A stretch of DNA of 20,250 nucleotides, from the IMG/VR virus record IMGVR_UViG_3300029264_000208, positions 1 to 20,250 of that record; one strand, written 5' to 3'. Both the position numbers and the translations under genes were made by a program. Under the pieces are notes generated by a model, which did no database searches, was not told the origin of the DNA, and saw only the letters and a program-made list of their open reading frames with translations. Of this stretch, positions 3,235 to 19,644 are shown piece after piece. Each line of letters opens with the position of its first letter. The first letter of the stretch is position 1. The stretch is from a virus.

Positions 3235-3269
3235 AAGTGGAGGTAAGGAAACTTATCTCCACTTTTTTT
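3235..3269 (+). terminator. Rho-independent terminator
   Basis: AAGTGGAGGTAAG (3235-3247) pairs with CTTATCTCCACTT (3252-3264) with a single G-T wobble. The loop is GAAA, and the second arm runs into a tract of seven T (3263-3269). This 13-bp stem with a GNRA-type loop is a textbook terminator. It ends the RNase H unit. The next gene begins only 20 bases later with no early-type promoter in between, so read-through or a promoter of another class probably serves 3289 onward. Confidence 0.9.
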
Positions 3270-3288
3270 ATCTAAGAGGAATATAATT

Positions 3289-3705
3289 ATGAAAGTTAAA
3301 ATTGGTAAAATCTACCCGGACTGTCATTGGTGGTCAGCGAAACTGCTTGGTTGGAATTCCAAGCGAAAGGTAAGTGTTCGTATTGACAAGTGCGATACGT
3401 GGAGCATGGATAATACCCTTGCTTACATCATTCATCCTATGCTTGTACAACTAAAAGCAACACAGCACGGACATCCTGCAAACTTATCAGAAAGACAATG
3501 GGATGATACGCTAGACGAAATGATTTGGGCATTTGAACAAAAAATGGATTTCAATTGGGAAGATCAGTTCTATGGACCATACATTAAAAAGGCAGGCAAA
3601 CACTCGTTCGAATGGATTGACCACGAAGGCCTTAAGGCACATCAGAAACGAATGACCGCGGGATTTAAACTGTTTGGTATATATTACGAAAACTTATGGG
3701 ACTAA
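3289..3705 (+). CDS. Conserved phage protein of unknown function
   Basis: This 138-residue protein has a pattern I recall from many tailed phages of several types: VSVRIDKCDTWSMDNTLAYII, then PMLVQLKATQHGHP, WDDTLDEMIWAFEQK, EDQFYG and a C-terminal GFKLFGIYYENLWD. It is rich in Trp and acidic residues. No enzyme motif is evident. Phage homologues are usually annotated as hypothetical. The start follows AAGAGGAA. It is the first gene after the terminator at 3235-3269 and runs with 3-base spacing into the next gene. Confidence 0.8.
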   Translation: MKVKIGKIYPDCHWWSAKLLGWNSKRKVSVRIDKCDTWSMDNTLAYIIHPMLVQLKATQHGHPANLSERQWDDTLDEMIWAFEQKMDFNWEDQFYGPYIKKAGKHSFEWIDHEGLKAHQKRMTAGFKLFGIYYENLWD

Positions 3706-3708
3706 ATA

Positions 3709-4035
3709 ATGAGTAAATATAGACCTGACAATTGGGTAATTATTAAATTTAAAACCGCCTATCCTCACTACCGTGTTCTGGTAGGATGGAGTGGTGGTTA
3801 CTTAGATGGCGACAGTTGGCGTTTAAACAGTGGCATTACTCGTGTTGACGATGAATACGATCACTTGTTATTTTACGGTAACTCTGGCTCGGCGTATTGT
3901 TGTAATAAACTTTCTTATAGGCTAAGAATCAATAACGAAGGAACATGGAGACAACTGCAAGAAATTTACGGTGACAAAGTAGAAATGATGCCAGAAGACA
4001 CCGACTGGTTAAACATAGATTGGATTATTCAATGA
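3709..4035 (+). CDS. Conserved phage protein of unknown function
   Basis: A 108-residue protein with PDNWVIIKF, RVLVGWSGGYLDGDSWRLNSGITRV, LLFYGNSGSAYCC and a C-terminal helical part. I recall similar small proteins (xDNWVIIK...GWSGGYLDGDSWR) in T4-like and other marine phages, always unannotated. It starts three bases after the previous stop. Its own stop overlaps the next start as ATGA, so 3289-4481 reads as one operon. The beta-rich, aromatic sequence suggests a small globular barrel. Function unknown. Confidence 0.75.
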   Translation: MSKYRPDNWVIIKFKTAYPHYRVLVGWSGGYLDGDSWRLNSGITRVDDEYDHLLFYGNSGSAYCCNKLSYRLRINNEGTWRQLQEIYGDKVEMMPEDTDWLNIDWIIQ

Positions 4036-4481
4036 GCAAAAGAATTGAACTCTATAACTTTAGAGTGAAACAAGTAACAAGAGTGGTTGACGGCGACACG
4101 TTCGACTGTATACTGGACTTGGGATTCGACGTATTGCTAGCAGGCAGAGTCAGGATGTTAAACATTGATTCGCCAGAAAGCCGCACAAGAAATCTGGAAG
4201 AAAAAGCATACGGCTTACTTGCAAAAGACTGGTTATGTGAAAACATTAAAGGCGAAGACATACTAGTGCAAACCGTGCTGGATAACGAAAAAGGTAAATT
4301 CGGCCGTATCCTTGGAACGGTATTAGTGGACGGAGTGGACGTTAATGCTAAAATGATTGAAGAAGGTCATGCAGTTGCATACCACGGACAATCAAAAGAC
4401 GAAGTTGCCCAAGCCCATTTAGATAACCGAGCAATGCTAACCGAACGCGGTATTGTTCCTACCTGGCATTTTAAAGGATAA
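4032..4481 (+). CDS. Staphylococcal-nuclease-like endonuclease (TNase/SNc domain)
   Basis: With the ATG at 4032, chosen because it forms the ATGA overlap common in this window, the protein has 149 residues (an in-frame ATG at 4020 is possible). It has a nearly complete SNase domain: RVVDGDT (Ca2+ ligand D22, T23), RVRMLNIDSPES (catalytic Arg41, Asp46, Glu49) and KFGRILG (Arg92, the second catalytic arginine), followed by VDVNAKMIEEGHA. These match the Arg35/Glu43/Arg87 triad of micrococcal nuclease. The family hydrolyses DNA and RNA. No signal peptide is seen, so it probably acts inside the host, perhaps in nucleic-acid breakdown. Confidence 0.85.
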   Translation: MSKRIELYNFRVKQVTRVVDGDTFDCILDLGFDVLLAGRVRMLNIDSPESRTRNLEEKAYGLLAKDWLCENIKGEDILVQTVLDNEKGKFGRILGTVLVDGVDVNAKMIEEGHAVAYHGQSKDEVAQAHLDNRAMLTERGIVPTWHFKG

Positions 4482-4487
4482 CGAAAT

Positions 4488-4522
4488 AGGGGGTTTACAT
4501 TCCAATTGCAATACGTTAGTAT
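4488..4522 (+). promoter_or_regulatory. Early-type promoter module, copy 4
   Basis: TTTACA at 4494-4499 behind five G, 17-bp spacer, TAGTAT at 4517-4522. The leader ATTAACAACAGAGGATATATA leads to the HD hydrolase at 4547. Here the right half of the dyad is ATTCC rather than ATCCC. Confidence 0.8.
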
Positions 4523-4546
4523 AGTATTAACAACAGAGGATATATA

Positions 4547-5065
4547 ATGAACTACTTAATCTCCAAAGCTCATGCATTTGCAACCGGCGCACATGGCGCA
4601 ATCGGTCAAAAGCGCAAGTATACCGGCGAAGACTATATTGTTCACCCACGCAGGGTGGCAGAAACGATTATAAGAATTGGGGGTTCGGGAGAGATGATCG
4701 CAGCAGCATATCTTCATGATGTTGTTGAAGATACCCAAGTCTCTGGGTCAATAATTAAGGAAGAGTTCGGCACGGTCGTATATGAGCTTGTGATGGGTCT
4801 AACAGACGTCAGTAAACCAGGAGATGGTAATCGTAAGCTTAGAAAATCAATGGACGCTGTTCATACTGCCTCTGCAAGTAGAGAAGTTCAAATCATTAAG
4901 CTTGCCGATCTAATCGATAATACCACGGACATCGTTCGTTACGATCCATGGTTTGCAAAGGTATATCTTGAAGAGAAAGCAACAATGCTGACAGTAATGG
5001 ACAAGGTTCACGACCATGAATTATTTACGCTTGCACAAAGTAATTGGCCTGAAGGGTATGACTAA
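4547..5065 (+). CDS. SpoT/MESH1-type HD-domain alarmone hydrolase
   Basis: This 172-residue protein has the RelA/SpoT-type HD hydrolase signature and no synthetase or regulatory domain. The blocks are AHGAIGQKRKYTGEDYIVHP (H33, with the family's G-x-x-Y-I-x-H-P), AAYLHDVVEDT (H57, D58 and the E61-D62 pair) and KLADLIDNT (D121). In SpoT and in small alarmone hydrolases these residues bind Mn2+ and remove the 3'-pyrophosphate of (p)ppGpp. The likely role is lowering host alarmone during infection, but another 3'-phosphorylated nucleotide is possible. It is first in a bicistron with gluconokinase, whose GTG start directly follows its stop. Confidence 0.85.
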   Translation: MNYLISKAHAFATGAHGAIGQKRKYTGEDYIVHPRRVAETIIRIGGSGEMIAAAYLHDVVEDTQVSGSIIKEEFGTVVYELVMGLTDVSKPGDGNRKLRKSMDAVHTASASREVQIIKLADLIDNTTDIVRYDPWFAKVYLEEKATMLTVMDKVHDHELFTLAQSNWPEGYD

Positions 5066-5593
5066 GTGAAAGGGATTGTAATCATGGGAGTTGCCGGCTG
5101 TGGGAAATCCTCGGTTGGCGCCGCCTTGGCAGAGCAACTCGGGCTTAACTATTTAGATGGTGATCATCTTCATTCTGCTGAAAATATTGCTAAAATGTCT
5201 ATGGGAGAACCACTGACTGACGCAGATCGTGAGCCATGGCTTCGCGAGATCGGACAGCAGTTTGCAGCTTCGGATGCTTCGTTGATCATTGGTTGTTCAG
5301 CACTGCGGCGTGTCTATCGTGACTGGATTAGACAGTATGCAAATACTGCAGTTATATTTGTGCATCTTGCTGGTAACCGCGAAGTGATTAAACAGCGGAT
5401 GGCTACAAGAGAAGGTCACTTTATGCCGGTAAAATTGCTGGATAGTCAATTTGCTGCTTTGGAACCTTTGCAAAGCGATGAGACTTCGATTGTGGTGGAT
5501 ATTGACCAGCGGTTTGCAAGCGTTGTTGAAAATGCTTTATCCAAGATTAATATTGAAATAGGGGGTTTACATCCCGATCGCGATATGTCATAA
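5066..5593 (+). CDS. gntK: Gluconokinase (gluconate kinase)
   Basis: The protein has 175 residues, the usual length of the bacterial GntK family, which phosphorylates D-gluconate to 6-phosphogluconate with ATP (EC 2.7.1.12). It has the P-loop GVAGCGKSS (8-16) and the family block DGDHLHSAENIAKMS..PLTDADREPWL (31-59). It also has CSALRRVYRDWIR (77-89) and REGHFMPxxLLxSQFAALEPL (115-135). The start is GTG directly after the preceding TAA, with GAAGGG upstream. Residues from about 165 on (IGGLHPDRDMS) are encoded by the next early-type promoter, so the native C-terminus was probably replaced. I do not know this enzyme as a common phage gene, so it is likely host-derived. Confidence 0.9.
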   Translation: MKGIVIMGVAGCGKSSVGAALAEQLGLNYLDGDHLHSAENIAKMSMGEPLTDADREPWLREIGQQFAASDASLIIGCSALRRVYRDWIRQYANTAVIFVHLAGNREVIKQRMATREGHFMPVKLLDSQFAALEPLQSDETSIVVDIDQRFASVVENALSKINIEIGGLHPDRDMS

Positions 5594-5594
5594 T
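5560..5594 (+). promoter_or_regulatory. Early-type promoter module, copy 5 (inside gntK 3' end)
   Basis: TTTACA at 5566-5571 behind five G, 17-bp spacer, CATAAT at 5589-5594 with TGT in front. The whole module lies in the last codons of gntK, and the gntK TAA stop is part of the -10 box. The leader ATATAGGAAACATACATC leads to the ATG at 5622. Confidence 0.88.
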
Positions 5595-5621: not shown

Positions 5622-6182
5622 ATGAATATTTTTATACTCGACAAAAACCCAATCAAAGCCGCTCAGCTACAGTGCGACAAGCACGTGGTTAAAATGGTCT
5701 TGGAATCAGCTCAAATGCTATCCACCGTGCATCGCGTATGCGACGGCTCACTAGGCAAAGCACCATCCAAATCCGGCAAGACTATGGTCAAGCATTGGAC
5801 CTTGGAAAACAAAGCTATGGACGACGTCTTGTACAAAGCTGTTCACGTTGGTCACCCTTGCACAGTATGGTCTATGGAATCAGTCCAAAACTACATCTGG
5901 CATTACGATCACTTCCAAGCTTTGTCTACGGAATTTACATATCGTTATGGCAAACAGCATAAGTCATGGGTAGATCTGCAGGATGCTTTATCTGTCCCGC
6001 CTACTAACATTCCACATATTGGTCTTACCCCATTCAAACTTGCAATGGGTGCAGCACCAGAATGTATCAACGATGCAGATCCTGTTGGTTCATATCAAAA
6101 GTATTACATGTCTAAGCAGGAACGTTTTGCTATGGATTGGTCCAAGCGCGATACACCCGAATGGTTTATCCGTGCCGCGTAA
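5622..6182 (+). CDS. Conserved phage protein with QCDKHVVKM motif
   Basis: The 186-residue product starts MNIFILDKNPIKAAQ and then has QCDKHVVKMVLESAQMLSTVHR. Later come HPCTVWSMESVQNYIWHYDHFQALSTEFTYRYGKQHKS and TPFKLAMG. I recall this pattern from many phage proteins, where DxxPxxAAxxxxDKHVVKM and HPCxxWxxxSxxNYxWL are nearly invariant. The clustered His, Asp, Lys and Cys suggest an active site, but I know of no proven function. It is the first gene of a unit with its own early-type promoter. Its stop overlaps the GTG proposed for the next gene. Confidence 0.8.
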   Translation: MNIFILDKNPIKAAQLQCDKHVVKMVLESAQMLSTVHRVCDGSLGKAPSKSGKTMVKHWTLENKAMDDVLYKAVHVGHPCTVWSMESVQNYIWHYDHFQALSTEFTYRYGKQHKSWVDLQDALSVPPTNIPHIGLTPFKLAMGAAPECINDADPVGSYQKYYMSKQERFAMDWSKRDTPEWFIRAA

Positions 6183-8164: not shown

Positions 8165-8950
8165 ATGAAAAGAATGATTTATCAGGTGTACGTAGGCCCG
8201 CGTAAGAGGCTATATGATCATTGCACCCAGTCTGTAGCGCGCTATTGCGCTGAACATGGTATCGATCATATCATCCAGACCTCACCAATTCTACGTATTA
8301 AACCAGATATCTTATTGACAAATAGAAGTAAAGAGTCATATGGTAAACATGGTGGCTATCTTCCCATCTATGAAAAAGAGAATGCATTCGCTTACTTCGA
8401 TCGTTATGATCAAATTGCCATTGTAGATGGAGACATATGGATCAGACCAGACAGTCCCAACATCTTTGATGAATTAGATGATGGGGTAGAGTTTGCCGGA
8501 GTTATCGAGCGACAGATGCCACTGACTCCCAAGTACTTTAACAAGATTGCAAACTATTCTAAGATGCAATACCACACGTTAAAGCATATTGATTGGAAGT
8601 GGGATAAGCACGGCGCCGAGTTCTACAACATGGGTATGATGTTGATGAGCAATAGTATTGCTAAGTATTTCAAAGACCAAACACCTATGGAATTCCTTAT
8701 GCGACATCGCTTTAAAGACTTTATCGACGGCAGAGATGCTTGGAAATGGTCTACCGATCAGACATTGCTTAACACTTGGGTACGTGAAGAGAAGATGAAA
8801 CAGAAACATCTTCACTGGAAATGGAATGGATTATTTAATGCTATTCCGCATAATAGAATGCAAGAAGCTCACTTTCTACATTTCTTCCTTAAAGATCTTC
8901 TCCCACACGGAGGAGAGAATATCGAAGAGCTAATGAAGTTAGTGGAATAA
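8165..8950 (+). CDS. Glycosyltransferase, GT-A fold (GT8-like), first of the cluster
   Basis: The 261-residue protein begins MIYQVYVG, has an ARYCAEHGIDHIIQ helix-strand, and then QIAIVDGDIWIRPDSPNIFDE. The DGD at 88-90 at the end of a hydrophobic strand is the metal- and nucleotide-sugar-binding DxD motif of GT-A enzymes. YNMGMMLMS and STDQTLLNTW further on match the acceptor-side and second catalytic regions of GT8-like enzymes. The same architecture recurs at 9939 and 11323, so these are likely paralogues. The sugar and acceptor are unknown. The ribosome binding site AGAAGG lies within the end of the previous small gene. Confidence 0.8.
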   Translation: MKRMIYQVYVGPRKRLYDHCTQSVARYCAEHGIDHIIQTSPILRIKPDILLTNRSKESYGKHGGYLPIYEKENAFAYFDRYDQIAIVDGDIWIRPDSPNIFDELDDGVEFAGVIERQMPLTPKYFNKIANYSKMQYHTLKHIDWKWDKHGAEFYNMGMMLMSNSIAKYFKDQTPMEFLMRHRFKDFIDGRDAWKWSTDQTLLNTWVREEKMKQKHLHWKWNGLFNAIPHNRMQEAHFLHFFLKDLLPHGGENIEELMKLVE

Positions 8951-8973
8951 TAAGATATATCGAGGAGGAAAAT

Positions 8974-9939
8974 ATGAAAGTATTAATCACAGGGGGAGCA
9001 GGCTTTATTGGCTTTCACCTCGCAGCTAAATTTAAAAAAGAAGGCCATGATGTAGTTTGTCTGGATAACTTTAATGACTACTACGACCCACTCTTAAAAA
9101 AGCAGCGAGCTCATATCCTTGAAGGAGGATACGGTGTTCAAGTCATTAACGTAGACTTGGCAGCAACAATCCTTGATGATATCTTTAAGTTGCATAGGCC
9201 TCATTTGGTAGTGCACCTTGCTGCAAGCGCCGGCGTTCGGGTGTCTATGGATGAGCCACTGGAATACATCGAAAACAACATTGTGAACACTCAGCGGGTA
9301 ATTAACGCATGTGAAAAGTATGATGTGGAAAATGTAATCTATGCATCTACCTCGTGTGTAATGGGCGGCAATCAGCTACCATGGAACGAGCACGATCCTA
9401 TCGGTATGCAACTTAGCCCGTATGGATATACCAAGGCAACGAACGAGAATCAGTTTGATATCTCTAAAATTCCAAACGTAGCAGGTCTACGTTTCTTTAC
9501 AGTTTACGGTCCTTATGGTAGACCAGATATGGCATTGTTCGACTTTACTAAAAACATTCTTGCAGGCAATCCAATTACCGTATATAACAACGGTGATATG
9601 GTTCGTGACTTTACATACATAGATGACATTGTCCAGGGTATTAACCTTGTATCTAGGAACATGACCGGCAATTCGGAATACCATATTCGGAGCACGTACG
9701 AGCGGGATATCTATTGTATTGGTCATGGCGCGCAGGTCCAGCTTATGGATTTTATTAGTGCTATTGAAAAAAATCTTAATAAGTCAGCTATTATCAAATT
9801 CGCTGATATGCATCCCGCAGATGCTAAGCACACCTGGAGCGATACTACTAAAATTCAAAAGCTCGGTTACAAATCTACTACGTCAATTGAAGAAGGCGTG
9901 GAGAAATTTATCCATTGGTATAAAGGACATTACAAGTAA
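8974..9939 (+). CDS. NAD-dependent sugar epimerase, UDP-glucuronate 4-epimerase-like
   Basis: This 321-residue short-chain-dehydrogenase-type enzyme has the NAD-binding GGAGFIG (7-13), LDNFNDYYDPLLKKQRA (30-46) and HLAASAGVRVSMDEPLEYIENNI (81-103). It also has the catalytic STS (about 125-127) and YGYTK (Tyr150, Lys154). NDYYD, AGVR and RFFTVYGPYGRPDMALFDFT are characteristic of UDP-glucuronate 4-epimerases, which make UDP-galacturonate. The family usually has AAQAGVR where this has AASAGVR, so another UDP-sugar is possible. It has the strongest ribosome binding site in the cluster (GAGGAGG). It probably supplies a donor sugar to the flanking glycosyltransferases. Confidence 0.88.
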   Translation: MKVLITGGAGFIGFHLAAKFKKEGHDVVCLDNFNDYYDPLLKKQRAHILEGGYGVQVINVDLAATILDDIFKLHRPHLVVHLAASAGVRVSMDEPLEYIENNIVNTQRVINACEKYDVENVIYASTSCVMGGNQLPWNEHDPIGMQLSPYGYTKATNENQFDISKIPNVAGLRFFTVYGPYGRPDMALFDFTKNILAGNPITVYNNGDMVRDFTYIDDIVQGINLVSRNMTGNSEYHIRSTYERDIYCIGHGAQVQLMDFISAIEKNLNKSAIIKFADMHPADAKHTWSDTTKIQKLGYKSTTSIEEGVEKFIHWYKGHYK

Positions 9940-10751
9940 TGACTAAAAACTTAATCTATCAAGTTTGGGCTGGTGAATTAAGACCGGGCTGTAAACATTC
10001 ATCTAAGCTTATGAAAGCCTATGCCGATAGAATTGGTGCAGACTATAGACTAGACATTGATCCAAACATTGCTTCGGCAGTATGTGATGTGCCAATGTAT
10101 TTTGAATGGTTGAATCCTATGCTTGATGATTCTTTTTTAGAGTATGATAATGTTCTAGTCGTGGACTTAGATATATTTCCTACGACTAACTGTAGAAATA
10201 TCTTTGATGAGGCTTACTTGGATGTTGGTATTTGCACTGAACCTTTCCAAGGTAAATATAGAGCGTCTACAACTATCGGTGGTCACATAGGAATGGCTAA
10301 CGACGAAAAATGGTTTAGATCCGTGCAAAAACAGTATGAGATAGACCTACCGAGAGATGCCGATGGTTATCTGAAAATCTATAATGCTGGAATGGTTCTA
10401 TTCTCTAATAAAGGTCTACGGAAATGTAGAGAAAAGTTTGAAGCTTTCCAAGAATATATTAACTATATGAGAACGCAAAAACTAGGAAGATTTTATACTG
10501 TAGACCAAAATTACTTTCATGTGATGATGTGTCAACATTTAGATTATACCGAAATGAGCAACGAATGGAATTGCTATATACACTACACAAGAGGTCCGCT
10601 TGGGCTAACAGAGCCTATTCATGATGGAAGAGGACCAGACCCGCAGTTTGTACACATACAACTATCGGGAGCAGACTATTTTGAAGACGAACAACTTGAC
10701 CTAATTACTAATGAAAAATTGGGGCTTAAAATGAGAGAGAAACTATTATGA
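9939..10751 (+). CDS. Glycosyltransferase, GT-A fold (GT8-like)
   Basis: A 270-residue protein starting MTKNLIYQVWAGELRPG, with VLVVDLDIFPTTNCRNIFDEA (DxD at 76-78), IYNAGMVLFS and TVDQNYFHVM. It has the same order of motifs as the gene at 8165: IYQV at the N-terminus, DxD followed by NIFDE, YN(A/M)G, and a DQ motif. It is therefore a diverged paralogue. The start overlaps the epimerase stop as TAATG, and its end overlaps the next gene as ATGA. It is cytoplasmic, with no membrane segment. Donor and acceptor are unknown. Confidence 0.8.
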   Translation: MTKNLIYQVWAGELRPGCKHSSKLMKAYADRIGADYRLDIDPNIASAVCDVPMYFEWLNPMLDDSFLEYDNVLVVDLDIFPTTNCRNIFDEAYLDVGICTEPFQGKYRASTTIGGHIGMANDEKWFRSVQKQYEIDLPRDADGYLKIYNAGMVLFSNKGLRKCREKFEAFQEYINYMRTQKLGRFYTVDQNYFHVMMCQHLDYTEMSNEWNCYIHYTRGPLGLTEPIHDGRGPDPQFVHIQLSGADYFEDEQLDLITNEKLGLKMREKLL

Positions 10752-11326
10752 TTAATGTAGACTTAAGCTCTGCGACGACCGTAGAAGAATTTTATAATAA
10801 CATCCGGGCAGGACAAGAGGGTGAACACGGTGACGACTATTGCGCTCAGCACGATGCAATGCGAAAGTTCTTTAAAGAAGGCGGATGCACTTCGTACAAA
10901 GAACTTGGCACACACCAAGGTGGCACAGCCGCCAATGCTATGCTTATGGGTGCAAAGTATATCGAGTTAGTTGATATTGACATGCACAGATACCGCAAGT
11001 TTCTTAAACCCCTAGCTGAACGATATTGCGCCGAGCATAAGATTGAACTGGTTGTAAAAGAGATAAGCTCTGTTGGCCTTCAAGCCCAAGTAATGGCACC
11101 AATGGTTGACATGATGTTAATCGACTCTATTCACAAATGGCATTGGACAAACCAGGAGCTTGATACCCACGCGACGAACGTGCGAAAGTTTATTGCATTC
11201 CATGACACCGCCACATGTCACGATATCCGGAATGGTGTAGATAAGTGGTGTCAGAATAACCCGTGGAAGCTGGTTGATCGAGGCACAACAAATGTGGGCT
11301 ATACGGTATTGCAGCGCACAAAATGA
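10748..11326 (+). CDS. Class I SAM-dependent methyltransferase-like protein
   Basis: The 192-residue product has a motif-I-like YKELGTHQGGTAANAMLMGAK (residues 50-70), followed by the acidic strand ELVDID (73-78). Later come MMLIDSIHKWHWTNQELD and KFIAFHDTATCHD. GTxxGGTA plus VDxD and the later LIDSxHxxxxxxxEL and HDT elements resemble the Methyltransf_24 type, often found in sugar and surface-polysaccharide clusters. The likely job is O-methylation of a sugar or processing of a glycan precursor. A related hydroxylase-type family that shares this fold is the main alternative. It overlaps both neighbours by ATGA. Confidence 0.7.
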   Translation: MINVDLSSATTVEEFYNNIRAGQEGEHGDDYCAQHDAMRKFFKEGGCTSYKELGTHQGGTAANAMLMGAKYIELVDIDMHRYRKFLKPLAERYCAEHKIELVVKEISSVGLQAQVMAPMVDMMLIDSIHKWHWTNQELDTHATNVRKFIAFHDTATCHDIRNGVDKWCQNNPWKLVDRGTTNVGYTVLQRTK

Positions 11327-12003
11327 ATAATATTATTCTGCAACACTTCGATGGCGAGCTTAGAGAGCTGGATAAACTTTCTATGGCCAACATCCAAAAG
11401 TATGCTAAGATGGTTGGTGCTGAATATAAACTAATCACTGGTAAACCATTTAGAAAACATCTTACATCGCCTTGTCAAAAGGTACACATGCTAGATCAAC
11501 AGTTTGACGAGTATGACGAAGTTCTTATGCTTGACATTGACATGTTTGTTCCAAAAGGCATGACAGTTAATGTGTTTGATGAGGTTGGGGTAGGACTGTA
11601 TAATCCTATTCAACAGAATCTGCATCGCAAATTAGCTCGGTCGTATCCTTTCCATGCAGCGGAAAGCGCACCGTATTGGGGTGGTGCTATATACAAGATG
11701 CCATTGCTTATGCGGAAATGCTTGAGAGAGCAATTAGGCGGTGATGAACATTGGATGAGTTCGTATAACCAGCCCTACCACTTTGAAGACGAAGGGATCT
11801 TTCATACACTTGCTTATAGAGCTGGGTATCTTAAGAATGATAATCTTAACCTAGATCCTAGATGGTGCTATGATAACTATCTTGAAGATCCGGCGTCTGC
11901 TGGCATGATCCACATCCGCACTAAGGTAACACCAAGTGGGCCTAAACGTGAAAAGATTGTGAACTATCAAGCTTTGGTGGATCAAGGAATTATTAGCAAT
12001 TAA
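11323..12003 (+). CDS. Glycosyltransferase, GT-A fold (GT8-like)
   Basis: A 226-residue protein: MNNIILQHFDGELRELDKLS, AKMVGAEYKLI, then EVLMLDIDMFVPKGMTVNVFDE (DxD at 71-73 followed by NVFDE, as in the other two paralogues), WGGAIYKM and EDEGIFHTLAY. The order of elements matches the genes at 8165 and 9939, though the N-terminal IYQV is replaced by IILQ. The ATGA overlap with the methyltransferase suggests coupled translation. It is the last gene before promoter copy 7, which restarts transcription in the middle of the cluster. Confidence 0.78.
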   Translation: MNNIILQHFDGELRELDKLSMANIQKYAKMVGAEYKLITGKPFRKHLTSPCQKVHMLDQQFDEYDEVLMLDIDMFVPKGMTVNVFDEVGVGLYNPIQQNLHRKLARSYPFHAAESAPYWGGAIYKMPLLMRKCLREQLGGDEHWMSSYNQPYHFEDEGIFHTLAYRAGYLKNDNLNLDPRWCYDNYLEDPASAGMIHIRTKVTPSGPKREKIVNYQALVDQGIISN

Positions 12004-12021
12004 TTTCAAATAAAGTGAAAT

Positions 12022-12056
12022 AGGGGGTTTACATCCCCTGTTACATAGTGTAGAGT
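12022..12056 (+). promoter_or_regulatory. Early-type promoter module, copy 7
   Basis: TTTACA at 12028-12033 behind five G, 17-bp spacer, TAGAGT at 12051-12056 preceded by TG. The upstream AATTTCAAATAAAGTGAAAT and the downstream GTTACAT are shared with copies 1 and 2. It restarts transcription in the glycan cluster, reading into the gene at 12089. Confidence 0.82.
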
Positions 12057-12088
12057 AGTATCAACAACACAAACAAAGGATATACATT

Positions 12089-12298
12089 ATGACAACCTTG
12101 AACTTCATCCCAGCCTTCGACGCAGCATTCCACGCAGCAGTTGCTAACCCAGAGAATACTTTCCTCACTGGTGGATACGATTGGAGCTTTATTGAGTCAG
12201 ACATTTGGGTCGATCTTAAAGGTCAAGGCTTTGACGTAGTCGCAATGGAATCACAACTTGTAGAAGAATTCAAATTTGCTTTGGAAGATTACGCATAA
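12089..12298 (+). CDS. Small acidic hypothetical protein, 69 residues
   Basis: The start lies in the standard promoter leader with AAAGGA upstream. The sequence (MTTLNFIPAFDAAFHAAVANPENTFLTGGYDWSFIESDIW...) is acidic and mostly helical, ending VEEFKFALEDYA. It is soluble, with no motif I recognise. Its stop overlaps the next glycosyltransferase start as TAATG. Being first behind a promoter and coupled to a GT25-like gene, it could be an accessory to the cluster, but nothing in the sequence shows that. Confidence 0.65.
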   Translation: MTTLNFIPAFDAAFHAAVANPENTFLTGGYDWSFIESDIWVDLKGQGFDVVAMESQLVEEFKFALEDYA

Positions 12299-13008
12299 TG
12301 GATGCTTACATCATAAACATGCCGGACAATGCCCAATCACGTGTAGGCACCAATGGCCTGATAATGAGCATGGCCAAGCACGCTCCTCGTGTAAATCCTA
12401 TCCTTGAGAAAGCAGTTACCCCTACTGACCTACGCTTTGATCAGTATAAAGATCTTTGGAACTACCCGTGGGGTTTTAAGGAACTTGATCGTGAAACAGA
12501 CCTTCTTAAAACCCCATATAAAACCTCTAACCCTTCGGCTCACGTTTGCTGTTCTATCTCACATTATCTTCTATGGAAAAAAGCTGCACAGTTAATGCAA
12601 CCTATTATGGTTCTTGAGCATGATGCTTTGTTCACTTGTAAGTTTAACCTATATGGCCATGACGTTCAAGACTGGGACGTAGTTGGTATTAATGATCCTC
12701 GTGGCAATACCCGAAAGTCAGGCGTATACCACCAGGGAGTACAAGATCTTGCAGATAAGCAAATGCGTATAAATCAAGTCGTTGTTGTGCCATGGGTAAG
12801 TTACGGACGTCGTGACATACCTCAAGGCCTTGCTGGTAACTCTGCATATATAATAACACCAAGTGGTGGACGTCGTCTAGTAAAACTGGTAGAGCAATAC
12901 GGCTTATGGCCAAACGATGCTCTTATGTGTAAACAGCTTATGGATGACCTTGGGCAAACGCATACATACTATACAACCACTCAACACTTAGAAAGTACTA
13001 CAACATGA
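12298..13008 (+). CDS. Glycosyltransferase family 25-like protein
   Basis: A 236-residue protein with MDAYIINMP at the N-terminus, CCSISHYLLWKKA (about 84-96), MVLEHDALF (104-112) and GNSAYIITPSGGRRLVKLVEQYGLWPNDALM. GT25 enzymes (LPS and collagen glycosyltransferases) carry SHxxLW followed by an ExDA-type metal site and an AYxxSxxGA segment. EHDA here replaces the usual EDDA. GT25 members commonly add galactose in LPS outer core or glycans, but the acceptor here is not known. It overlaps its neighbours by TAATG and ATGA. Confidence 0.8.
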   Translation: MDAYIINMPDNAQSRVGTNGLIMSMAKHAPRVNPILEKAVTPTDLRFDQYKDLWNYPWGFKELDRETDLLKTPYKTSNPSAHVCCSISHYLLWKKAAQLMQPIMVLEHDALFTCKFNLYGHDVQDWDVVGINDPRGNTRKSGVYHQGVQDLADKQMRINQVVVVPWVSYGRRDIPQGLAGNSAYIITPSGGRRLVKLVEQYGLWPNDALMCKQLMDDLGQTHTYYTTTQHLESTTT

Positions 13009-13220
13009 TTAGATATGAAGAAAAGTGCACCGTTAGCAATGAGGGTCGTAAAGTAGACGTAGAGGTTGAAATCGACAACTATAAAGCAGGTCAAGGCTTT
13101 ATGGCATATCTCTCTGGTGCTAAGTTTAAGATGCGCTATAACCCGTCTTTAAGCACCTATGAAGGACGTGTAGCAGGTATGGATCTTAGTTCTAAAGGTC
13201 CACGGGTATGGAAGCTATGA
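13005..13220 (+). CDS. Small hypothetical protein, 71 residues
   Basis: The ATG at 13005 forms ATGA with the preceding stop. The sequence (MIRYEEKCTVSNEGRKVDVEVEIDNYKAG...) alternates charged and hydrophobic residues in several strands, ending AGMDLSSKGPRVWKL, and suggests a small beta domain. No family recognised. It is embedded between two GT25-like genes with overlaps on both sides, so it is expressed with them. Confidence 0.65.
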   Translation: MIRYEEKCTVSNEGRKVDVEVEIDNYKAGQGFMAYLSGAKFKMRYNPSLSTYEGRVAGMDLSSKGPRVWKL

Positions 13221-13864
13221 AGGCGTTTGTAATCACGATCGAAGGTCACGACCTTTCTAATCAAGCCGCAGAACGTTGTATTGAATCGGGCGCGCGACAC
13301 GGTGTAGAAGTTATTAAGTGGAGAGCTACTACCCCCGACGATAATCCAGTTTCTCTCTTTCGGGCTAAAGGTCTTAACCCGAATGGCTTTGGTGAGTCAT
13401 ACTCTCGGACAATAAACTGCATGGCAGCTTTCCTATCCCATCTATCTCTTTGGAGACATGCTGCAGACACCGATGAAGATGTTTTTATATTAGAGCACGA
13501 CGCAGTCTTTGTAAACAGGATTCCCAATATAAACACACGGAACTCAGTAATCTCAATGGGTAAGCCATCCTATGGTAAGTTCAATACTCCTGACACCATG
13601 TTTAATCCTGTTAAGCTAATGTCTAAACCATACTTCCCGGGCGCGCACGCGTACGTGGTATCAAAGGATGCTGCACCGGTTATTGTAGAGGCAGCAAAGG
13701 AACGTGCCGCACCAACCGATCTATTCTTTAGTAACAAAAACTTTGACTTCCTATACGAATACTACCCATGGCCGGTAGAAGCCATGGATAGCTTTACAAC
13801 CATACAGAATAGAACAGGATGTATTGCTAAGCATAACTACGGGGAGGAATATAAAATTGTATGA
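13217..13864 (+). CDS. Glycosyltransferase family 25-like protein
   Basis: With the ATG at 13217 (ATGA overlap; an in-frame ATG at 13208 is less likely), the protein has 215 residues. It starts MKAFVITIEGHDLSNQAAERC, has CMAAFLSHLSLWRHA (68-82) and VFILEHDAVF (89-98), then PGAHAYVVSKDAAPVIVEAA. These are the same SHxxLW, EHDA and (A/S)AY(V/I) blocks as in the gene at 12298, so the two are diverged paralogues of the GT25 type. No membrane segment. Confidence 0.8.
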   Translation: MKAFVITIEGHDLSNQAAERCIESGARHGVEVIKWRATTPDDNPVSLFRAKGLNPNGFGESYSRTINCMAAFLSHLSLWRHAADTDEDVFILEHDAVFVNRIPNINTRNSVISMGKPSYGKFNTPDTMFNPVKLMSKPYFPGAHAYVVSKDAAPVIVEAAKERAAPTDLFFSNKNFDFLYEYYPWPVEAMDSFTTIQNRTGCIAKHNYGEEYKIV

Positions 13865-14468
13865 TGACGATCTATTCATAACCGGCTGCGATAGTAACAC
13901 TCGATGGATGTTGCCTTGGTTCGAAGAACGCTTCTATAAGCACGTGCCAAATGGACAACTAAAGGTGTTTGACTTCGATAAAGAAGAACTAAACGGCTGG
14001 ATGAATAAACCCCATGCAATGTTAAAAGCAAGTGGCATGGGTCGAAAGCGGGTATGTTGGCTTGACACTGACTGTGAGATACGTTCGGACATATCTGACA
14101 TTTTTGAATACACCGAAAGAAATAAGCTCTTAATGGGAATAGACCAACCATGGAGCACACGAAGCTACGAGACATGGCATAACACAGGCGTAGTTGCGTT
14201 TCAATGTCTACCGGACATACCCCATATTCTTTCGGACTGGGCAAAAGAAGCAGTAACGTCGGGTGGAACGTTTCGTGGTGACCAAGAGCTATTACATGAG
14301 ATGCTTAAAATTAATCTTAACAGACTCATATATATTACACATCTACCAAAGGGCTATAATACTTTAAGGCTCGACGTTATGGATAACACTGCGCCGAGAA
14401 ATATAAAAATTATGCATCATACTGGTCCTAAAGGTAAACTGGAAATAAAAAGGCAAATGAAAACATGA
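13857..14468 (+). CDS. Glycosyltransferase, GT-A fold, with TTG start
   Basis: No ATG in this frame fits the start. A TTG at 13857 sits nine bases after GGGGAGG (13841-13847) and overlaps the previous stop, giving 203 residues: M(TTG)YDDDLFITGCDSNTRWMLPWFEE. VCWLDTDCEIRSDIS holds the DxD (70-72), and RGDQELLHEML (140-150) fits the second conserved site of GT8-like enzymes. WHNTGVVAF corresponds to the N-x-G strand. Donor and acceptor are unknown. The end overlaps the next gene as ATGA. Confidence 0.75.
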   Translation: MYDDDLFITGCDSNTRWMLPWFEERFYKHVPNGQLKVFDFDKEELNGWMNKPHAMLKASGMGRKRVCWLDTDCEIRSDISDIFEYTERNKLLMGIDQPWSTRSYETWHNTGVVAFQCLPDIPHILSDWAKEAVTSGGTFRGDQELLHEMLKINLNRLIYITHLPKGYNTLRLDVMDNTAPRNIKIMHHTGPKGKLEIKRQMKT

Positions 14469-15067
14469 ACCCCATACATATTGTTGGTAATGGAAAATCT
14501 GCCGCTCTTTACGAATATGCAAAAAGAGAAGGAACCACTTACACTTGCAACCTTCCACCGTTTGCTGTTCCTCACGCAAAAGCCACTTTCATGGTAGACT
14601 TTAAGATGATGAAAGCTATTCATGAAGGTTCAGTTCAGGTGCCAGGCGATTGGATTATTGGTGATCGGCCTAAAAGATACACGGAAATGAATTCGGATTT
14701 TTATCTTCGATATGCCCCACATATTAAAGAGTTCTACTTAGACCTTCCAAAGTATGCCGGTAACTACACAAACTTTAACTGCGGGCATATGGCAACATAC
14801 TATTGCGCATCAAAGCTTGGTGCACAAGATATTCACTTATATGGCTTTGATTCCATCTTTGGTCCGGAGCTACGAAGCAGCACAGACTTTTATTTAACGT
14901 CGGATCGCAGTGTAGAAAATAGTGTTAGACTTGCAGGAAACTGGCGCCCAATATGGGAAAAAATGTTTCACCAATTCAAAGACACTACGTTTCACCTGCA
15001 TTACTTTAAGCCGAACGATTTAATGAAGTTTCCTAATAATGTGAATATTGTTATTGACCGAAAGTGA
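14465..15067 (+). CDS. Putative glycosyltransferase-like protein (DUF115/sialyltransferase-like pattern)
   Basis: A 200-residue protein that opens with a beta strand and glycine turn, IHIVGNGKSAALYEYAKR. It then has ATFMVDFKMMKAIHEG, WIIGDRPKRY, NFNCGHMATYYCASKLGAQDIHLYGFDSIFG and a C-terminal TTFHLHYF. The GNG(K/P)S turn and the GA(x)xIHLYGxD segment occur in DUF115 motility-accessory proteins and GT29/GT42-like enzymes, which act on nine-carbon sugars. That link is a weak pattern match, and no catalytic residues can be assigned. It is the last clear gene of the cluster. Confidence 0.6.
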   Translation: MNPIHIVGNGKSAALYEYAKREGTTYTCNLPPFAVPHAKATFMVDFKMMKAIHEGSVQVPGDWIIGDRPKRYTEMNSDFYLRYAPHIKEFYLDLPKYAGNYTNFNCGHMATYYCASKLGAQDIHLYGFDSIFGPELRSSTDFYLTSDRSVENSVRLAGNWRPIWEKMFHQFKDTTFHLHYFKPNDLMKFPNNVNIVIDRK

Positions 15068-15526: not shown

Positions 15527-18082
15527 TTATCTCCTTACGTTGAATTTAGCTGAAAGTGGTTGGAACTTAAACGATTTGTTTCCTTTAATGGCTACAAGTG
15601 CATTTGCATGTAAATCTTGTTCGCTTCTAATTACATGATTAATTCTAATAGATTCAGGGAAACATACGCCTGCAAAATCGGATTTACTGTAGTTAAAAGT
15701 CCCAGCAGGTATAATCTCAGTGCCCGTTACTGCGCCACCCGCGGAATCACGTTTTGCAATAATGAGTGCTGCCGAAACAAGTGTCGTGCCTGACTGCGGG
15801 ATAATATTCAGATTCATATCAATCAGAACTTCATCTCCCATTCTTAACTGCGACATATCGAATGAACCTGTAGCAGAATTCATGCGTTCTTTTTGTGGTC
15901 CTACGTGAGCACTATCTGTCCATCCACTAATAGCAGAATCAAAGTTGAACATATTTGTTACGCCCTCAGCCATATAAGCTCCGCCGAAAAGTCCTGTGCC
16001 TTGATAATCAGTAGTTCCTGAATGAGGAGCTTCTTCGATGTTGGGTCCGTTTGCCCAATTAGGTGCATCAGCAGAAATATTAGATGCGCCGTCAAATCCT
16101 ATCCTATACCAGAAGCTACTGTCATATGGTGCGCTAGCAGCATCTGCTCCATCAAGGATAGCATAGTTGGCATCAGTTACCGCATCCACGCCTGACAGTG
16201 CACCTGATACATAATCGGTAAATCCAGATGTCTGTTCAAAGCCACCTTTAGCAGCCAACAAAGTCTTAGTTTTTTCGCTAGCAATACGACCAATGGCTGC
16301 GATGATTGAGGCGGCATTGATAGCTATATCAGAGTCAATTAAGACTTTCAAGTCAGAGTCAGCATTACCAAATGCAGTTGTTACCACAGCGTCAGCAGCT
16401 CCGAATGCGTTTGTTACCACGACGTTAGCAGCAAGACTGTTAACTAGTGCACTACTATCAGCATCCGCAAAATCATTTCTTATGGAAGTATTTTGCGCTG
16501 CAAAGGCGGTAAGCAATGATGCTTGTAACGTGGCGTCACCAGCGGCAAAATCATCACGGATATCAGAATCTGTATCATTAATTTTTACATCTTGTGCGGC
16601 GACTAGAGCAACGTTAGCAGCAAGATTGGCTACTAATGCATCGCTATCTGCGTTTTGGAATGCGGTTGTTACTACAACATCAGCAGCTACGTGTGCCGCA
16701 GTTACCACAGCGTTAGCAGCAAGATTGGCTACTAATGCATCTGAGTCAGCATCCGCAAAAGCGGATCTTATAGAAGTATTTTGCGCTGCAAAGGCGGTAA
16801 GTAGGGATGCTTGTAAAGCGGCGTTAGCAGCTACGGCTGCAGCGGTTACGTCAGAGTCAGCATTACCGAATGCAGTTGTTACCACAGCGTCAGCATTACC
16901 GAATGCAGTTGTTACCGCAACGTTAGCGGCAAGATTAGCTACTAGTGCATCCGAGTCAGCGTTTTGGAATGCTGTTGTTACCACAGCGTCAGCAGCTACG
17001 AATGCCGCAGTTACTACAACGTCAGCAGCGGGAAATTCGTCACGTATATCTGAGTCTTGATTTCTGCGGCGCTGGTTTGTTTGGCCGTCTGCCACTAGGG
17101 AAGCAACTAATGCATCGCTATCTGCATTTGCAAATGCACTTGACAATGCGGTGTTTTGCGCAACGATTAGATTACCAACGGCTACTAGTGCATCTGAGTC
17201 AGCGTTTTGGAATGCTGTTGTTACCACAGCGTCAGCAGCTACGAATGTGGTAATTAGCACAGCGTCGGCAGCAACGGCTACAGCGGTTACGTCAGAGTCA
17301 GCATTACCGAATGCAGTTGTTAATGCGGTGGTTTGCGTGGCATCTGCCGCGCTGGCGAAGACCTTTGCAGCCGCAAGGGTATCAGAGTCAGCATTACCGA
17401 ATGCAGTTGTTACCACAGCGTCAGCAGCTACGAATGCGCCAGTTAGAGAGACGTCACTAGCTACGAAATCAACACGAATGTCAGAGTCAGCATTTTGGAA
17501 TGCTAATGTTACTCCTGCGATAGAACCACTCGCTGTGATTAATGCTCTAACGTCCGAGTCGGCATTTTGGAATGCTGTTGTTACCACTTTGTCGGCAGCA
17601 AGAGCTACAGCGGTTACGTCAGAGTCAGCATTACCGAATGCAGTTGTTACCCCACTGATTGCACCTGTAATTACGCTTTGTAGCGCGGATGATTGCGCAA
17701 CGTCCGCAGCGGAAGCGAAGGCCTTTGCTAGAACTAAACCATCAGAGTCTTTATTCCGTCGACGGTCGTTTGCAACGCCAATATCATGCTTAGTATCGCT
17801 ATCCAGAATGGCGTCAGCAGCTAGAAATGCGGCAGTTACTACAGCGTTAGCAGCAAGATTGGCTACTAATGCATCTGAGTCAGCGCCACCGAATGCGGTT
17901 GTTAATGCGGTGGTTTGCGCGGCATCATCGGATATTGATAATGCTCGAATTATAGATTTCTGATCGGAGTCAAGATTACCGACCCCAACCATAATCGCTG
18001 CAGTCAAGGTGGCGTCGTCAATATCGGTACGACTAATATCCATCTTCTGCGTAAGGGGGTTAAAGTTGTATGTAGTTCCCAT
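15527..18082 (-). CDS. Long repetitive tail fibre-like structural protein
   Basis: An 851-residue protein. The N-terminal YNFNPLTQKMDISR resembles the baseplate-binding start of phage fibres. Residues about 54-580 are an Ala/Val/Asp/Ser-rich shaft built from 11-residue units such as ADAVVTTAFGN and ADSDALVANLA, with the ADSD motif about 14 times and spaced mostly 22 or 33 residues apart. Two inserts contain RRRN. Residues about 600-851 form a non-repetitive domain (FWYRIGFDGASN, WANGP, LIDMNLNIIPQSGTTLV, FKFQPLSAKFNVRR), probably a receptor-binding or virion-surface head. No signal peptide or lytic domain is visible. The start overlaps the upstream stop as TAATG. Confidence 0.85.
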   Translation of the reverse strand: MGTTYNFNPLTQKMDISRTDIDDATLTAAIMVGVGNLDSDQKSIIRALSISDDAAQTTALTTAFGGADSDALVANLAANAVVTAAFLAADAILDSDTKHDIGVANDRRRNKDSDGLVLAKAFASAADVAQSSALQSVITGAISGVTTAFGNADSDVTAVALAADKVVTTAFQNADSDVRALITASGSIAGVTLAFQNADSDIRVDFVASDVSLTGAFVAADAVVTTAFGNADSDTLAAAKVFASAADATQTTALTTAFGNADSDVTAVAVAADAVLITTFVAADAVVTTAFQNADSDALVAVGNLIVAQNTALSSAFANADSDALVASLVADGQTNQRRRNQDSDIRDEFPAADVVVTAAFVAADAVVTTAFQNADSDALVANLAANVAVTTAFGNADAVVTTAFGNADSDVTAAAVAANAALQASLLTAFAAQNTSIRSAFADADSDALVANLAANAVVTAAHVAADVVVTTAFQNADSDALVANLAANVALVAAQDVKINDTDSDIRDDFAAGDATLQASLLTAFAAQNTSIRNDFADADSSALVNSLAANVVVTNAFGAADAVVTTAFGNADSDLKVLIDSDIAINAASIIAAIGRIASEKTKTLLAAKGGFEQTSGFTDYVSGALSGVDAVTDANYAILDGADAASAPYDSSFWYRIGFDGASNISADAPNWANGPNIEEAPHSGTTDYQGTGLFGGAYMAEGVTNMFNFDSAISGWTDSAHVGPQKERMNSATGSFDMSQLRMGDEVLIDMNLNIIPQSGTTLVSAALIIAKRDSAGGAVTGTEIIPAGTFNYSKSDFAGVCFPESIRINHVIRSEQDLHANALVAIKGNKSFKFQPLSAKFNVRR
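16345..17925 (-). repeat. 33-base repeat array inside the fibre gene
   Basis: Degenerate and near-identical 33-base units encode the 11-residue shaft repeats. Blocks such as GTCAGAGTCAGCATTACC followed by AATGCAGTTGTTACC (as read on the + strand) recur almost unchanged near 16350, 16853, 17292, 17383 and 17620, and a GTTTTGGAATGC variant recurs near 16650, 16960, 17205 and 17560. Such high nucleotide identity points to recent duplication or unequal recombination. Confidence 0.85.
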
Positions 18083-19567: not shown

Positions 19568-19582
19568 TTAATAAAATACATT

Positions 19583-19617: not shown

Positions 19618-19644
19618 ACTATTAATAACAAAGGAACATACGCT

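Follow-up and report, generated by a model that had tools for sequence, protein, structure and literature searches.

A predicted small alarmone hydrolase gene adjoins a predicted gluconokinase gene at an accessory site in a T4-like phage contig

Two abutting genes in an uncultured T4-like phage are predicted to encode a stand-alone HD-type small alarmone hydrolase (SAH) and a gluconokinase (GntK). Judging from their sequences, we consider it probable that they form an early accessory cassette for host takeover, in which an active SAH of the PaSpo type and an active gluconokinase act largely independently of each other. Sequence analysis supplied the gene identities, the operon layout, the accessory position, the predicted folds, and the finding that the catalytic residues are intact, and it is the gluconokinase that appears to be the new part, suggesting that a phage may draw on host sugar-acid metabolism in a manner not seen before.

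The window, that is, the stretch of DNA analyzed here, is a whole IMG/VR virus record of 20,250 bp; given this exact length, it probably represents an incomplete phage genome. The phage origin claimed in the first-pass annotation was confirmed by a T4-like gene content, comprising PhoH, a T4 RNase H-type exonuclease, a SegE-type GIY-YIG protein, two tRNAs, and a glycosyltransferase-like block. For two flanking genes, the closest named phages are the Kyanoviridae record C48C1, Yersinia phage YerA41, and Pelagibacter, Methylophilales, Stenotrophomonas, and Caulobacter phages, with protein identities of about 40 to 60%, and a near-identity search of the window among phages gave no match. The glycosyltransferase-like ORFs run from 8165 to 15064, include a nucleotide-sugar epimerase at 8974-9939 (PHROG 540), and differ in gene order among relatives; they perhaps serve DNA or capsid glycosylation. 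Farther downstream, the minus strand encodes an 851-aa protein (15527-18082) with many degenerate repeats of type AADAVVTTAFGNADSD and no PHROG match, possibly a fibre-like structural protein.

Table 1. Features of the accessory block and its edges, in window coordinates
Feature	Coordinates	Strand	Remarks
Intrinsic-terminator-like hairpin, 13-bp stem, T tail	3235..3264	+	Left edge of accessory block; similar hairpin sequence in sister contig L118 at the same place
First part of accessory block	3289..4481	+	ORFs 3289-3705 (PHROG 11543) and 3709-4035; SNase-type nuclease within 4020-4481
Early-type promoter serving the SAH gene and gntK: AATAGGGGGTTTACAT with -10-like hexamer	4485..4523	+	One of 8 copies
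SAH gene (stand-alone HD small alarmone hydrolase, PaSpo-like)	4547..5065	+	Predicted from profile matches, catalytic residues, and fold
Shine-Dalgarno-like GAAGGG	5051..5056	+	Lies in the SAH 3' end, 9 nt upstream of gntK GTG
gntK (predicted gluconokinase, GntK/IdnK type, Walker A GVAGCGKS)	5066..5593	+	GTG start, 175 aa
Promoter of next gene (5622-6182), inside gntK 3' end	5557..5594	+	CATAAT -10 overlaps gntK stop
Conserved T4-group gene, PHROG 624, annotated DNA-binding	5622..6182	+	Right flank of accessory block

Both open reading frames of the pair proved to be real at the coordinates first assigned to them, the SAH gene starting with ATG and encoding 172 aa, and they adjoin with zero gap, the SAH stop codon TAA (5063-5065) being followed directly by the GTG start of gntK. 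The early-type promoter that had been proposed to serve both genes was likewise recovered, as a copy of the element AATAGGGGGTTTACAT at 4485-4500. Allowing up to 3 mismatches, this element has eight matches in the window (at 794, 1341, 1650, 4485, 5557, 12019, 18832, and 19580), all on the plus strand, where shuffled sequences give 0.24. Seven of the eight copies lie 62 to 71 nt upstream of a listed ORF and the copy at 19580 lies about 53 nt upstream of an ATG at 19633; in several copies, a TATAAT-like hexamer comes next at a spacing of 17 nt. The copy preceding the SAH gene carries TTTACA and a -10-like hexamer, either TAGTAT (at 17 nt) or TATAGT (at 20 nt), which makes for an imperfect -10, weaker than that of some other copies. 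The copy at 5557, which belongs to the next gene, also encodes the tail of GntK from residue 164 on. The element has a G-run upstream of its -35 region (GGGGGTTTACAT). Its 16-mer is also present in 58 stretches of IMG/VR contigs and could serve for tracing this phage group.

The accessory position of the pair emerged from comparison with a sister contig (L118), which is collinear with the window at 78% nucleotide identity up to 3274 and at 81% from 5620 onward. Between these flanks, the sister contig holds only the terminator-like hairpin, the same promoter, and an ORF of 103 aa; promoter and ORF lie at L118:2285-2664, and the product's N terminus is signal-like, with segments rich in glycine/alanine elsewhere in the protein. 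Across 56 relatives, the interval between the homologues of the ORFs starting at 2588 and 5622 varies in content and is shorter than 800 bp in most cases, against about 2.6 kb here. Together, these comparisons delimit the accessory block, about 2.3 kb long (3275-5558), between terminator and promoter. The ORFs in its first part, one of which (3709-4035) is of unknown type, are not in L118 and have homologues in other phages of the group. From the edges of the block, we infer cassette exchange at the promoter repeats, and we propose that phages of this group swap early genes as promoter-bounded cassettes, which would explain why the SAH gene and gntK adjoin. The result is a clear accessory-gene slot in an uncultured T4-like group, bounded by a terminator and an early-type promoter, which would put anti-stress and metabolic genes under ready-made early control.

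The first gene of the pair matches HD families only, namely Pfam HD_4 (E=3.6e-16), the metal-dependent phosphohydrolases of PHROG 990 (E=5e-33), and, over the HD part of the profile, TIGR00691 RelA/SpoT (E=5e-23); its product has no synthetase, TGS, or ACT domain. These matches bear out the hydrolase identity given in the first-pass annotation, as TIGR01313 does for the gluconokinase. Residues R23, K24, H33, H57, D58, E61, D62, D121, and N125, assigned as catalytic by reference to RelSeq and MESH1, occur without exception and do not vary among 33 aligned phage sequences. The AlphaFold2 model (pLDDT 95.2) has MESH1, Corynebacterium glutamicum RelH, bacterial SAHs, and SpoT/Rel as its top fold matches in the PDB. 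In phylogenetic analysis, the protein groups in a clade that is almost wholly viral, and a match at E <= 1e-20 was found in only 2 of 289 alphaproteobacterial genomes. Relatives turned up in 264 phage records of GenBank and in 201 stretches of IMG/VR, numbers for which the earlier description of phage alarmone hydrolases as a minor class is too weak; by sequence, this half of the pair is an ordinary representative of a known and common phage gene class. The neighbours of SAH genes in other phages are varied and mostly small. In Komagataeibacter phage phiKM1 (L268:1834-3013), the SAH gene lies directly after a HicA/HicB toxin-antitoxin pair.

Control of host growth by removal of (p)ppGpp, the role first proposed for this hydrolase, stands as one reading, and the closest characterized relative, PaSpo of Salmonella phage SSU5, points at least equally to the reversal of toxSAS action (tRNA 3'-CCA pyrophosphorylation, ppApp). 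PaSpo, which shares 53% identity over 148 aa with our SAH, removes the FaRel2 modification on tRNA (PMC11559606), and overproduction of the SSU5 SAH alleviates FaRel toxicity (PMC7644958). It is therefore tempting to speculate that the SAH chiefly serves counter-defence, undoing toxSAS/CapRel-type tRNA pyrophosphorylation or ppApp, with gntK as an unrelated passenger in the early operon. The variable neighbourhoods of SAH genes in many phages, including the position beside HicAB in phiKM1, agree with this interpretation, to which we assign a considerable probability, if somewhat short of an even chance. However, the PaSpo evidence (PMC11559606, PMC7644958) bears on toxSAS and not on the natural role during infection, (p)ppGpp is also a substrate of many SAHs, and PADLOC has no matching model for the SAH and gave no convincing defence match for either SAH or GntK. 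In the tree, which covered phage SAHs, SSU5 PaSpo was placed outside most rows, with long-branch warnings. We also considered an NADPH-phosphatase role, as described for MESH1 and XccSAH (PMC9765508), which in the phage would oppose a gain of NADPH from gluconate.

As for the second gene, family and fold both indicate that it encodes a bona fide GntK/IdnK gluconokinase. Its product scores 196.2 bits (E=3e-58) against TIGR01313 therm_gnt_kin, for which the curated cut-off is 113.75, and below the cut-offs of the narrower equivalogs PRK11545/PRK09825. It matches 43 of the 45 columns that are conserved at >=85% in a family sample; it has R81 where 88% of the family have K, and L135 where 93% have P. 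The structural model (pLDDT 85.2, with low confidence at residues 168-175) has ten best PDB fold matches that are all gluconokinases or sugar kinases closely related to them (4eun, 3t61, 1knq series; E <= 3e-13); adenylate and APS kinases come next, with E-values some six orders of magnitude poorer (3e-07). Alternatively, the protein might be a repurposed kinase that acts on a different small molecule, such as another sugar acid or a nucleotide, given that this P-loop kinase fold is diverse, that the Walker A motif GVAGCGKS differs slightly from the common GVSGSGKS/T, and that a sugar-nucleotide epimerase and glycosyltransferase-like genes lie near in the same phage. We regard this as improbable: the family-conserved columns are retained almost throughout, the fold and sequence matches to gluconokinases stand far above those to all other kinases, and GCGKS is the majority form in the alignment consensus of the nearer bacterial relatives. 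The nearest relatives found are GntK/IdnK enzymes from Sinorhizobium plasmids (about 60% identity; support of 99/92 for the join in the tree), suggesting an alphaproteobacterial origin of gntK, a suggestion that holds for a tree sampled mainly from Alphaproteobacteria rather than from all bacteria.

The remark that phage gluconokinases are hardly known at all was upheld by searches of IMG/VR, BFVD, and GenBank phages. Among the 2.9 million contigs of IMG/VR, no other viral GntK was found, either by a single-sequence search or by scans with two family-pattern sets; being pattern based, these scans could miss divergent copies. Whole-record searches of 50 viral entries that carry an SAH or are related brought up no GntK over the family cut-off, and Foldseek detected no GntK-like protein among the BFVD viral models (best match, 12% identity). 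Twelve GntK matches in GenBank "phage" entries are bacterial or look so. Two fecal scaffolds carry a GntR/FCD regulator in one case and a GntP permease plus lyase in the other, and an Acinetobacter "phage" record contains edd-eda-gntT-idnK. Salmonella "phage" records were set aside by title, size, and annotation; the S.Kent and ECO95 records are short and unannotated. Literature searches on gluconokinase or gluconate together with phage turned up no phage gene; the "gluconokinase" reported for YerA41 is encoded by the host and goes down in the course of infection (PMC7354516).

Could a bacterial gntK have been joined to a phage contig, as host DNA or through an assembly artefact? The gene is known from a single contig, GntK was otherwise not found in the viral databases searched, and short promoter repeats flank the pair. 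Yet the left neighbour is a phage-clade SAH in a zero-gap operon structure, the gene on the right lies in sequence collinear with that of the sister phage, and the phage promoter of the next gene sits within the gntK reading frame. Moreover, the composition of gntK (GC, 0.459; GC3, 0.383) is inside the range of its phage neighbours, and the exact edge repeats, at about 22 bp, are short for a misjoin. A chimeric origin is thus very improbable, and with phage flanks, a sister phage, and a phage promoter inside the gene, gntK qualifies as a phage-encoded metabolic gene.

The linkage of the two genes, which the first-pass annotation had presented as a functional unit, found no support within the reach of our searches: the pair was found in this one contig only, in an accessory slot, and did not co-occur in related phages, an outcome that the annotation itself had named as refuting it. 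If the genes had been selected as a pair, they would form a cooperative growth-state module with the first phage gluconokinase, in which rRNA and nucleotide synthesis would reopen once (p)ppGpp is removed, and GntK would supply ribose-5-phosphate and NADPH for this synthesis and for that of phage DNA. The abutting stop and start codons and the common promoter speak for such a module, its pathway logic is compatible, and cyanophages carry pentose-phosphate genes. Against it, the two family-pattern scans of IMG/VR returned no further GntK, none of the 50 viral records contained a GntK over the cut-off, no SAH was found in 41 mostly bacterial gntK loci (many only about 3.5 kb), and the genes next to SAHs in other phages differ from case to case and are mostly small. 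We therefore find the module unlikely, though less so than a repurposed kinase; since the pair co-occurs nowhere else among the sequences searched, cooperation is possible and unsupported, and the linkage, resting on one contig, is to be held lightly.

We thus favor an early cassette of two mostly independent enzymes, whose activity, early timing, and metabolic effect we infer as follows. The SAH gene and gntK would be cotranscribed from one early-type promoter, probably with translational coupling. The SAH, with Mn2+ bound in its HD site, would take the 3'-pyrophosphate off (p)ppGpp/(p)ppApp and/or toxSAS-modified tRNA, whereby host growth arrest would be lifted. GntK would convert gluconate and ATP to 6-phosphogluconate, which host enzymes could take into the pentose-phosphate route, giving NADPH and ribose, or into the Entner-Doudoroff route. 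Each enzyme would favor phage replication, for the most part independently of the other.

If GntK is active, this entry point into the pentose-phosphate and Entner-Doudoroff routes would be new for a virus and would bear on phages whose bacteria feed on sugar acids, while the SAH would be one further member of a common, little-studied phage gene class. The closest parallel for the latter is SSU5 PaSpo, also a stand-alone phage HD hydrolase, which has the motifs QKRKYTGEDYI, LHDVVEDT, and KLADL in common with it. In contrast, the SSU5 protein is longer (214 aa), comes from another phage type, and has no gluconokinase annotated next to its gene. MESH1, C. glutamicum RelH, and P. aeruginosa SAH share the fold (TM-score, about 0.7 to 0.8) and the HD active site, whereas MESH1 and the bacterial SAHs are only 22 to 27% identical to the phage protein, in a family whose substrate preference varies and is not readable from sequence. 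Cyanophages carry the pentose-phosphate auxiliary metabolic genes zwf, gnd, and talC, which, like gntK, are phage-borne and expected to raise pentose-phosphate flux. Unlike them, the phage GntK would enter at free gluconate instead of glucose-6-phosphate, in a phage not known to infect cyanobacteria. Finally, in fold and conserved residues the phage GntK resembles the enzymes of Sinorhizobium pSymA/pNGR234b, E. coli GntK (PDB 1knq), and S. meliloti 3t61, the Sinorhizobium plasmid enzymes being closest in sequence. However, while pSymA gntK belongs to a bacterial sugar-acid gene group (with L-idonate 5-dehydrogenase and an SDR), the phage gene lies in a putative early operon and has its C-terminal tail encoded by a phage promoter.
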